Under the pieces are notes generated by a model. That model was not told the DNA's origin. It saw only the letters and a list, made by a program, of their open reading frames with translations, and ran no database searches. The position numbers and the translations under genes were made by a program. From NCBI GenBank assembly GCA_017480785.1, contig JAFURZ010000018.1, forward strand, positions 1 to 42,681: a DNA stretch of 42,681 nucleotides, read 5' to 3'. Below are positions 9,192 through 20,273 of the stretch, piece after piece (position 1 is the stretch's first letter; each line of letters begins with the position of its first letter). This DNA is from Bacteroidales bacterium (GTDB taxonomy: Bacteria; Bacteroidota; Bacteroidia; Bacteroidales; P3).

Positions 9192-9202
9192 CCCCCTATC
9201 AT

Positions 9203-9309
9203 CTCCGCCATTTTAACGGTAGTATTACGCTAGTATTACGGTAGTATTACGGTTTAAAAGCGTAATACTACCGTAATACTAGCGTAATACTACCGTTAAA
9301 ATGGCGGAG
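9203..9309. repeat. Perfect 49-bp inverted repeat with a 9-base loop
   Basis: Bases 9203-9251 are the exact reverse complement of 9261-9309, separated by GTTTAAAAG. Each arm contains three tandem copies of an 11-mer, (G/C)TAGTATTACG, and ends in TTTTAACGG next to CCGCCAT. It starts 12 bases after the stop of the last glycan gene and ends 165 bases before the export lipoprotein gene. It could form a very long RNA hairpin that ends the operon, or a DNA cruciform. There is no T-run after either arm, so it is not a classical intrinsic terminator. Confidence 0.95.
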
Positions 9310-9403
9310 GATGTAGGGGAGAAAGTGAGGGTGAGGAGCGGGGGAAGGGGGCGTGGAGTTCGTGGAGAATAGAAGAAAACCGCTATTTTAATAATATTTA
9401 ACA

Positions 9404-12734: not shown

Positions 12735-12742
12735 CCCCCCCC
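12735..12742 (+). repeat. C8 homopolymer at the start region of the OmpA-like gene
   Basis: Eight consecutive C between an in-frame ATG at 12713 and a second in-frame ATG at 12755. In the present state both starts are in frame. A change of length would disconnect only the upstream start. Confidence 0.9.
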
Positions 12743-14222: not shown

Positions 14223-14756
14223 CTAGAAGCGCCAGCGCAGCTGCAGCATCCATGTCTGACGGCAGGGGCCGTCGGTCTGGCTGTCACCGCTGCCGATGCT
14301 CTCGGCACCGAGCACCCACGTCAGGGCATACTTGGCTGCCACCTGCAACCACTCGCCGACCCTGTAGCGTGCCACCGCATAGCAACGCCATCCGCGCCCA
14401 TAGAGGGCCGGCATGCTCCAGGCATACTGAAGGTTGCTCTCACCGAAATAGATACGCGCGTAGTAGCCGTCTACATCATACCACGCCAGTGCCGATGAGG
14501 CCTGGAAACGCTGCCGGCTGTAGCGCACCGCAAGGCTCACGAGGCCACCACCCTGACGGGTGGTGGCCTCGCTGTCAAATATGGCATACACTCCGCGGCC
14601 CGTGAACGTCCACGCCCCGCACACGGCCTTCACCTCGCCCTGCCACTGGCGGCGTACGGTACTCTCGCCCAGGTAGAGCACACTGTCCAGGTTGGGCACG
14701 TTACGCTCCTTGCGGCGGTAGGCGAAGCGTACCGTCGAGGTAAAATACCCCCCCCC
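14223..14756 (-). pseudogene. 3' part of a frameshifted helix-hairpin-helix/beta-barrel protein gene
   Basis: This minus-strand frame has no start of its own that makes sense. From the G9 run it reads GYFTSTVRFAYRRKERNV and continues as beta-barrel strands to a terminal LQLRWRF, an aromatic C-terminal residue typical of outer-membrane barrels. It is the continuation of the gene at 14701-16083: with eight instead of nine G at 14748-14756 the two frames fuse into one 619-residue protein (14223-16083 less one base is 620 codons). It is presently untranslated, unless ribosomal slippage occurs or other cells in the population carry G8. The stop is one base from the OmpA-like gene's stop. Confidence 0.82.
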
Positions 14757-18003: not shown

Positions 18004-18064
18004 TCCGCCTTCATCAAAATCCTCCTCAACTTCAAGGTTGCTTTCCCGCATAAATAACAAATCT

Positions 18065-18313
18065 GTCGCCCTTACAGGGCTTGAATGCTCTCGTACCCTC
18101 TACCGTGGGCTTACGCCCACGGCTACTATCCATCGCCCCCTGATGGGGGCTATGACTATATTATCACTATGTGCTTTTGATGACGTTGTGACAAAAGCCT
18201 CGGAGGGGTTCCTCTCACAAAAAGGACAGCCACGTAGTGGCGACAGATAATAGCCGTGGGCGCAAGCCCACGGTAACGTTCCCCACCCAATCCCAAAGCC
18301 CTGTAAGGGCGAC
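18065..18313. repeat. REP/BIME-like inverted element made of short palindromes
   Basis: The left arm has GTCGCCCTTACAGGGCTT (18065-18082) then the hairpin CCGTGGGC-TTAC-GCCCACGG (18103-18122). The right arm has the same two modules in reverse order and orientation: CCGTGGGC-GCAA-GCCCACGG (18254-18273) and AAGCCCTGTAAGGGCGAC (18296-18313). Between them are further small hairpins, GCCCCC-TGAT-GGGGGC and GCCAC-GTA-GTGGC. Palindromes of this wording are common between genes in Bacteroidales. Small open frames across it are not genes. Confidence 0.85.
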
Positions 18314-18361
18314 GGAAAGTTACTTTTTTATTGCGTTTACCCTAGAAGCATTGCCAATGTA

Positions 18362-18393
18362 TTTGCACAATTGGAATATATTGTGTACCTTTG
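18362..18393 (+). promoter_or_regulatory. Bacteroidetes-type promoter of the fimbrillin/FISUMP-like lipoprotein gene
   Basis: A -33 box TTTG (18362-18365), a 20-base spacer and a -7 box TACCTTTG (18386-18393) match the TTTG/TAnnTTTG consensus. Transcription would begin near 18400 and leave a leader of about 30 bases before ATG 18431, which supports that ATG as the true start. Confidence 0.75.
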
Positions 18394-18430
18394 CCACTTT
18401 GAAAGAAGCATCCCATACATGTATAACACA

Positions 18431-20075
18431 ATGAAATACAACATTTTACCCCCCCCCCACATGGGTCGCAGCTTTAATATTGTTTAGTTTGGCGCTGGCC
18501 GGCTGCCGCAAGGACGAGCAAGGTATGCAGCTGATTGCCGAAGGGTTCGGCGGGACGAAAGCCGCCGTCGACGGGCTCTACTCCTATTGGGTTGACGGCG
18601 AGACAGTGCGCATCAACGGAGTGAACAAGACGGTGGCCTACGACGGGACGACGGCCTACATCAGCGGTGTGGCAGAGGCGGGCGTCTACCGTGCATTGTA
18701 TCCCGACACGCTGAACAGCACGGCGGTGCTGACCTCCGACGAGGTGCAGGTGACCATTCCGCACACCTACACCTACCGCGAGAGCGACGGGCACCAACGG
18801 CTCGGCGTTCCGATGGCTGCCTATGGCACGAGCAGCAGCCGGTTGCTGTTCCAGCACCTCACCGCAGCCCTCACGGTGGAAATAAAGAACACGTATGGCT
18901 TCACCATTGAGGTGGACAGCGTGGTGGTGGAGAGCAACCTGTATCAGCTCAGCGGCGAGCGTGAGGTGACGCTGGCCGCCTCGATTGACGTCGGGGCCAA
19001 CAGCAGCGGAGTGGCGGCTGCCGAGCGGCGCGTGGCGGTGCTCTTCGACGGGGGCACCCGTCTGCAGGTGCTGGCCGGCGAGACGCGCCGTGTGCAGGTG
19101 CCCGTGCTGCCGGTGGGCGACGACAACCGCTTCACCATCAGGGTGGGTGTGCACAAGGTGGACGATGCCGACGTGCGGAGCACCTTCGAGCGGACCCAGG
19201 CCGGCGGACAAGCCGGCTATGCGCTGGCGCGTCGCCAGATGGGCTACGCGGGCGTAAGCTTCGGCAGTGGCTTCTCGGTGGCAGCCGGCCAGCAGGTCAT
19301 CATCGCGCAGGGAAACCTTCGGTATGTGCCGTCGACCGGCACGTGGTCGTTCCACAGTCATCAGTACGACATCTGCGAGGTGGGACCCGTCGACTCGACC
19401 ACCCGCTACCGGAGCGACGGCGACCTGCCCATCGACCTCTTCGGCTACGGTACCAGCGGCCATGACAATATGTATCCTTACATGACCAGCAAGGTGAACA
19501 CCGACTACAGGGCGTCCATCTCCTCCTTAGCTAAAACAGATTTTGACTGGGGTTGGTACAATGCCATTGCAAATGGTGGTAATACAGAGCACCAGTGGTA
19601 CTCGTTGACCTCGGAGCAGTGGAAATACGTGTTCAACACAAGGACTCCCACCACAGCAGGGGTCAACAGTAATAACTCGACACGCTATACCTACGCTACA
19701 ATCGGGGGCTCACACAAAGGTATCATCCTCTTCCCGGATGTCTACGTGCATCCGTCGGGCATCACTCCCATGACTGATGCCACCTTCAACAGTTACAGCA
19801 ACTTCACTGCCGCAGTGAGCTATGCCGACTGGAACAAAATGGAGGCTGCTGGTGCGGTGTTTCTGCCCGCTGCAGGATATAGGCTCCCGAAGGATATGCG
19901 AAATGAAGGATGCCACTATATTCAAGCTGCCATTTACGGTATGTATTGGACTGCATCGTCACTCAGCAGTGAAACGGCATACCGCGTTCGTTTCTACGGC
20001 ACACTCTCCCTACAATTTGCCACGGCAGATCGGTCCAACGGCATGTCGGTGCGTGTAGTGAAAGACCTTGACTAA
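18431..20075 (+). CDS. Fimbrillin-like / FISUMP-like surface lipoprotein, currently out of frame at a C10 run
   Basis: The long frame (from 18480) opens in the middle of a lipoprotein signal ending LALAGC. Just upstream, ATG 18431 starts MKYNILPPP but ten C at 18449-18458 throw it out of frame, with a stop at 18485-18487 after 18 residues. With nine C it reads on as TWVAALILFSLALAGC into the long frame, a textbook lipoprotein signal, giving 547 residues. The mature N-terminal half resembles fimbrillin-type domains (GTKAAVDGLYSYWVDGE, then TVEIKNTYGFTIEVDSVVVE). The C-terminal half looks like a FISUMP/C-type-lectin-like fold: YSLTSEQWKYVF, FLPAAGYRLP, MYWTASSLSS, and SVRVVKD at the end. A surface adhesin or minor-fimbria subunit is likely. 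Weak TTG initiation at 18480 would lack the n-region. Confidence 0.85.
18449..18458 (+). repeat. C10 homopolymer inside the signal-peptide codons of the lipoprotein gene
   Basis: Ten C between ATTTTA and ACATGG. C9 or C12 puts ATG 18431 in frame with the lipoprotein; C10 gives an 18-residue peptide. The run codes for the prolines of MKYNILPPP. Confidence 0.95.
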
Positions 20076-20087
20076 AACCAGTAAGAG

Positions 20088-20273
20088 ATGAGAGACAAGA
20101 AAGAATACATGGCTCCGCAGCTGACAGTGGTCAGCTTCAAGTCGGAGAGGGGCTATGCCGGAAGCGTCGACCTGCTGTTCTGGCTGGCCATACAGAACAG
20201 CTCCTCCGAGCAGATGGAGGCCTACGAGACCGGCAACGGATGGACGGAAGGGAACACCACCTTCTGGAATTAA
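20088..20273 (+). CDS. Small protein downstream of the fimbrillin/FISUMP-like gene
   Basis: A 61-residue protein with no signal peptide. The N-terminus reads EYMAPQLTVVSFKSERGYAG and the C-terminus is rich in Gly, Asn and Trp (GNGWTEGNTTFWN). It begins 12 bases after the lipoprotein stop and is followed by a terminator, so it is co-transcribed. Short proteins with an xAPQLTVVSFKxERGYA-type start next to fimbrillin or FISUMP lipoproteins are familiar from Bacteroidales genomes, but I know of no assigned function. The conserved head and variable aromatic tail resemble a peptide precursor or a small partner of the adhesin; neither is shown. Confidence 0.75.
   Translation: MRDKKEYMAPQLTVVSFKSERGYAGSVDLLFWLAIQNSSSEQMEAYETGNGWTEGNTTFWN

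Follow-up and report, generated by a model that had tools for sequence, protein, structure and literature searches.

In a 42,681-nucleotide (nt) stretch of DNA from a gut-type Bacteroidales bacterium (contig JAFURZ010000018.1 of assembly GCA_017480785.1; the whole stretch is called the window, and the assembly the own genome) we have found a gene, a, that is probably subject to slipped-strand on/off variation. Its product is best read as a fimbrillin-type surface lipoprotein. A run of 10 Cs (C10, positions 18449–18458) lies directly in the first codons after the start codon, ATG 18431–18433, on the plus strand. Gain or loss of a C in this run, which separates the start codon from the core of the signal peptide, would switch translation of the lipoprotein on or off. 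The assembled state would be the off state: with the start out of register, ribosomes would stop after 18 codons and the lipoprotein would not be made. Replication slippage would alter the run length in other cells and restore synthesis there; we infer that this switching goes on, reversibly, in living cells. The features of the region, all on the plus strand, are as follows.

18362–18393, plus strand: putative promoter from a motif scan, TTTG at 18362, a 20-nt spacer and TACCTTTG at 18386
18419–18448, plus strand: ATGs at 18419 and 18431 in one register; leader codons MYNT-MKYNIL ending in TTTTA
18449–18458, plus strand: C10 run, across which the start register and the body register differ
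18459–18506, plus strand: lipoprotein signal TWVAALILFSLALAGC with lipobox LAGC, Cys codon at 18504–18506
18522–19268, plus strand: predicted fimbrillin-fold domain, residues 22–270 counted after the run
19269–20075, plus strand: C-terminal part and stop codon, FISUMP-like (Fib_succ_major-like) through weak matches of homologues
20088–20273, plus strand: 61-residue open reading frame (ORF) directly downstream

Start codon, run and reading frames

A preliminary description of this DNA, made from the letters alone, had stated that the C10 run throws ATG 18431 out of frame, and this is the case: translation from ATG 18431, with which a second ATG at 18419 shares its register, gives 18 residues and then meets a stop, while the body lies in another register. 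Past the run the body register stays open for 538 codons (18459–20072), with the stop codon at 20073–20075. The intact frame had thus been described correctly; the length of 547 residues given for the body includes the n-region of the signal. The lipoprotein signal that had been placed in the other register is indeed found there (TWVAALILFSLALAGC, with its LAGC lipobox). That register has a TGA at 18432, and its earliest start-type codons, TTG 18480 and TTG 18489, are situated in the hydrophobic core, so a start at either of them would give a protein without an n-region.

Mononucleotide runs of about eight or more are long enough to slip. The run of the window gene has this length, and any change in it that is not a multiple of three moves the frame, as the start and body registers differ across it. 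The promoter that the preliminary description had seen ahead of ATG 18431 is a plausible candidate; we take the TTTG at 18362 and TACCTTTG at 18386 to be of the Bacteroidales type, presuming the consensus TAnnTTTG. Nested inverted repeats occupy positions 18061–18316, upstream of the putative promoter.

The preliminary description had also raised the question of whether the prolines encoded by the run are conserved and whether homologues start at a methionine further downstream. The run and its Pro codons are present at the same place in two paralogues of the own genome and in relatives. The eight aligned homologues without the run have their start Met near the end of the run position, a Met that the window gene does not have. 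Examples of the same layout with the run in register are found in relatives (L146, L147 and L148).

Both own-genome paralogues, b and c, are on contig C17, where the two sites are C17:166341 and C17:17521, and have the same type of leader, with C9 in b and C8 in c, each out of register. In the relative G072, b has C9 out of register, and c has C9 in register followed by a stop after 62 codons; c of G133 has C8 and a related gene of G100 has C10, both out of register. A codon comparison of paralogue b between two species gave a ratio of nonsynonymous to synonymous substitution rates (dN/dS) of 0.37 (Fisher 2e-8), with 0.19 in the N-terminal half and 0.44 in the C-terminal half. Both compared copies are out of register, and purifying selection on such copies argues against a gene that is silent in all cells. 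The earlier impression of a gene maintained and not decayed is supported by the intact body of the window gene and by selection on its sister gene.

Recurrence of long C runs near gene starts

Run lengths in the own genome were counted in 294,924 bases, comprising the stretches around all 37 C/G runs of eight or more and the window. On both strands we found 5288 runs of C3, 1401 of C4, 340 of C5, 46 of C6, two of C7 and 37 of C8 or longer; the last figure is the genome-wide total, so the jump at eight comes partly from the choice of stretches. The plus strand of the window has 64 C4, 15 C5, two C6 and no C7 runs; C8, C9 and C10 occur once each.

To pass the frame test, a C run with an ATG 6–30 nt upstream had to be followed by an N-terminal frame of at least 200 codons with a hydrophobic stretch. 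The loci were not a random sample (many were chosen for a run or a homologue), and the short-run controls came from the same loci. The test was passed by 26 of 108 runs of C8 or longer, compared with 19 of 1385 runs of C4–6 (Fisher 9e-20), 0 of 7 runs of C7 and 278 of 29948 runs of C2–3 (Fisher 1.5e-28 for C8 or longer versus C2–3). Removal of the six rows that belong to this lipoprotein group (a, b and c with the relatives in G072, G133 and G100) leaves 20 of 102 (Fisher 2e-14). Seven of the 26 rows are in register, which is near the one third expected under free slippage; one locus (L238), scripted as out of register, has another frame with a signal-like start in register, and the statistical test accordingly counts 8 of 26. 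The layout is also present in two named isolates, Leyella stercorea DSM 18206 and Pontibacter silvestris, out of register in both.

The pattern ATGA-N2..14-TTA-C8 has six occurrences in the own genome and 24, spread over 22 genomes, in a phylum-wide sample of 394 others, versus five occurrences of its reversed control in all 395; seven of the 24 matches recur among the 26 rows of the frame test. We did not rely on one pattern scan alone, because its reversed control was about equal in some genomes (5 versus 5 in G001), and turned to the frame test instead. The reversed control of ATGA..TTA with three Pro codons has 98 matches (29 and 69) in the own genome, far above the other listed genomes; these come from a repeat.

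In the own genome TTA stands directly before 10 of the 37 runs of C8 or longer, versus 13 of 1787 runs of C4–6 (Fisher 3e-12). The genome G015, from which 19 of 22 runs of C9 or longer were taken irrespective of context, has TTA before five of the 19 and before 10 of 402 runs of C4–6 (p 2e-4). TTA is found in leaders as well as in two codon registers (TTA-CCC and NTT-ACC), so it looks like a feature at the DNA level, and it may be a signal that seeds or protects the run.

Differences in run length were seen between closely similar sequences. A leader common to G004 and G001 (L156 and L163; 91% identity over 871 aligned nt) has C9 in G004 and C13 in G001. Behind it stand different lipoprotein genes, which match each other only near the C-termini, at 26%; L156 and L163 were therefore rejected as orthologous loci, the leader alone being shared. 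Another element is present twice in the own genome, with C10 in one copy and C8 in the other; the flanks of the two copies are 95% identical upstream and 78% downstream.

The genes behind C/G runs near the start include an fn3 protein (L253), a glycosyltransferase 2 (L165), a Polysacc_synt_2 protein (L176), a peptidase of the C10 family with a cleaved-adhesin domain (L148) and a PARCEL-repeat surface protein of L. stercorea DSM 18206 (L186). A TonB receptor (L254) is also behind a run, but it has its own Met after the run. Surface proteins, proteases, glycosyltransferases, polysaccharide enzymes and DNA methyltransferases are kinds of genes that are often phase-variable elsewhere. It is possible, though we put this forward more tentatively than the switch of the window gene, that Bacteroidota, whose surface switching is usually ascribed to DNA inversion, also run a poly-C contingency-locus repertoire. 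In it a start cassette of stereotyped build (an ATG followed by a small number of codons, in many cases TTA, and the C run) would be placed before genes for glycan enzymes and for secreted proteins that are not related to one another, and a DNA methyltransferase would be targeted as well. The finding of one 870-nt leader with its run before different lipoprotein genes in two species suggests that the cassette is mobile.

Evidence against a switch and alternative explanations

Several observations weigh against a slipped-strand switch. Six of the seven family loci with the run (a, b and c of the own genome, b and c of G072, c of G133 and the gene of G100) are out of register, and the seventh (c of G072) is truncated by its stop. 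Paralogue b has C9 in both species, and its dN/dS does not show in which state the differences arose. Moreover, b was probably exchanged between the species: the 4.8-kb block that holds it (L099 6131–10886) is 90% identical to G072 while neighbouring matches are at 71–75%, which makes a recent exchange likely, and the 149 aligned bases ahead of the run are identical. In the frame test, 82 of the 108 long runs with an upstream ATG failed, and among the 26 that passed at least five (L127, L131, L184, L252 and L254) have an in-frame Met after the run and before the hydrophobic stretch; the run may be in a leader there. Of the 14 C/G runs of nine or more in the own genome, none is flanked on each side by 100 open codons of one and the same frame. 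Three C/G9 runs are at mid-gene frame junctions, where they may be further switches or length errors; one of them splits a gene that is a single frame in most other genomes with a match, and length errors would look like this too.

The alternative that survives best, unlikely as we consider it, is that the assembled run length is wrong, so that a gene which is always on looks off through a homopolymer error. All three paralogues and the three mid-gene C/G9 runs of the own genome are out of register, and a C9 run of the own genome splits a gene for which 32 of 37 genomes have a match, as such errors would predict. Against this, three C/G8 runs inside long open frames, as well as the C10 of a GLUG/M26_N-type gene (L087), are in register. 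Runs of A/T of eight or more are at a frame junction in 0 of 46 cases and A/T7 runs in 1 of 52, a weak control as only 9 of these 98 are inside long frames. Out-of-register runs recur in other assemblies, the two named isolates included, and the presence of long runs at such special places would still call for an explanation.

We regard as improbable an effect above the level of DNA, in which slippage of RNA polymerase or the ribosome on poly-C (with a steady low yield) or stalling at Pro codons sets the rate of synthesis and the genome does not switch. Runs situated 120–190 nt before other secreted-protein genes (L077, L079 and L096) would fit such an effect, but homologous leaders vary in run length. 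The Pro codons argue weakly against it as well: among the 150 matches listed for ATGA..TTA with three Pro codons, 29 have unbroken C and 121, which need not be gene starts, have mixed codons. Slightly less probable still is a decaying gene, a young pseudogene whose run has drifted out of register: the window gene is out of register in the assembly and no such gene stands beside OmpH in the stretches examined from G072, G100 and G133, but its 538 codons have no further lesion, the out-of-register paralogue b is under purifying selection and the run is kept in several species. Slipped-strand variation of the lipoprotein gene thus remains our preferred explanation, and the layout of phase variation that the preliminary description had recognized is supported by the checks that were run.

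Encoded protein, known systems and further sites

The preliminary description had called the protein fimbrillin/FISUMP-like. The fimbrillin part is supported: residues 22–270 have the beta fold of fimbrillins (FimA/Mfa-type, Bacteroidia) in the predicted structure, as judged by structure comparison with VIA-align, and the Cys of the LAGC lipobox, part of the lipoprotein signal characteristic of the fimbrillin superfamily, is invariant in 14 of 14 aligned sequences. The FISUMP part fared less well, since Fib_succ_major (PF09603) gave weak matches in two of the 14 sequences (best E 0.0029) and none in the window protein. Mfa_like_1 matched one of the 14 (E 9.5e-5) and not the window protein, which has no Pfam or NCBIfam family at E 0.01; a sequence search of the PDB with the family profile gave no match. 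The model of the C-terminal part is of low confidence (mean predicted local distance difference test score, pLDDT, 48). From its fold and location the product would be exposed at the surface and could act as an adhesin. The 61-residue ORF downstream has no Pfam family. By eye, ORF ends resembling it (..GNGW.EG...FW.) are found just before homologues in G002 and G024, and pieces of it also match G072 and G133.

Surface genes of Neisseria, Helicobacter (sabA) and Campylobacter have long been known to undergo slipped-strand phase variation. The sites described here share with those systems a long mononucleotide run close to the start of genes for surface proteins and glycans, and they too include methyltransferases as targets; they differ in the Bacteroidales host, in the TTA often found before the run and in that switching is here predicted from sequence. 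Mpi belongs to the inversion systems of Bacteroides. These systems provide on/off surface variation in Bacteroidales as well, but by site-specific inversion and not by a change in run length; the passages available from one review describe such variation for promoters and SusC/D (PMC11868660). The same passages report poly-C variation, from 8C to 7C, in mga of group A Streptococcus, a likeness in the C run and the single-base length change, although mga is a regulator and not a surface lipoprotein and belongs to another phylum (PMC11868660). The FSD genes of Ornithobacterium hominis are credited with a 'putative phase variation mechanism' in a paper of 2026 (PMC13183296). Here too the host belongs to Bacteroidota and phase variation is proposed, for multi-copy FISUMP-type genes viewed as adhesins; the class is another one, and the passages of that paper at hand neither describe the mechanism nor mention a fimbrillin domain (PMC13183296). 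A literature search, with most subscription papers and bioRxiv outside its reach, brought up no report of phase variation through mononucleotide runs in Bacteroidales.

Slippage of these runs, if it occurs, would give uncultured gut Bacteroidales a second route to surface diversity besides inversion, and metagenome reads could score the switching directly through counts of run length. Some genes of the genus that seem broken or seem to lack a start would then merely be in the off state.

The own genome has about a dozen candidate poly-C/G sites, the window gene among them: five at starts of secreted-protein genes, one in a methyltransferase, three or four in leaders and three in mid-gene. The set of switches would comprise, besides a, the paralogues b and c, an OmpA-family gene and the GLUG/M26_N-type gene (C8–C10), and a D12 methyltransferase (G13). 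The OmpA-family gene (12743) has C8 at window positions 12735–12742 in its first codons, in register, with ATGs in two registers just before the run and a further in-frame Met after it. The GLUG/M26_N-type gene, likewise of the own genome, has its run in the first codons. In the D12 DNA adenine methyltransferase gene (L092 3995–4007; contig C16:89894–89906 of the own genome) G13 lies in register at about codon 30, counted from what appears to be a GTG start, and this gene is a candidate for phase variation. In three loci of the own genome (L077, L079 and L096) and one of G034 (L207) C8–9 runs are found about 120–190 nt before secreted-protein genes, and leader text around NSLI..TPP recurs in several of the four.

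At window positions 14748–14756 a C9 (G9 on the coding strand) joins two minus-strand frames of 460 and 174 codons. Of the 31 other genomes with a match, 28 have one frame of 619–873 residues here, and five relatives that were inspected have no run at the corresponding position; this may be a second switch in the window or an error of length. Finally, a 63-nt inverted repeat (92% complementary, with 11-nt units) at window positions 9193–9319 has a copy of 96% identity on contig C17.
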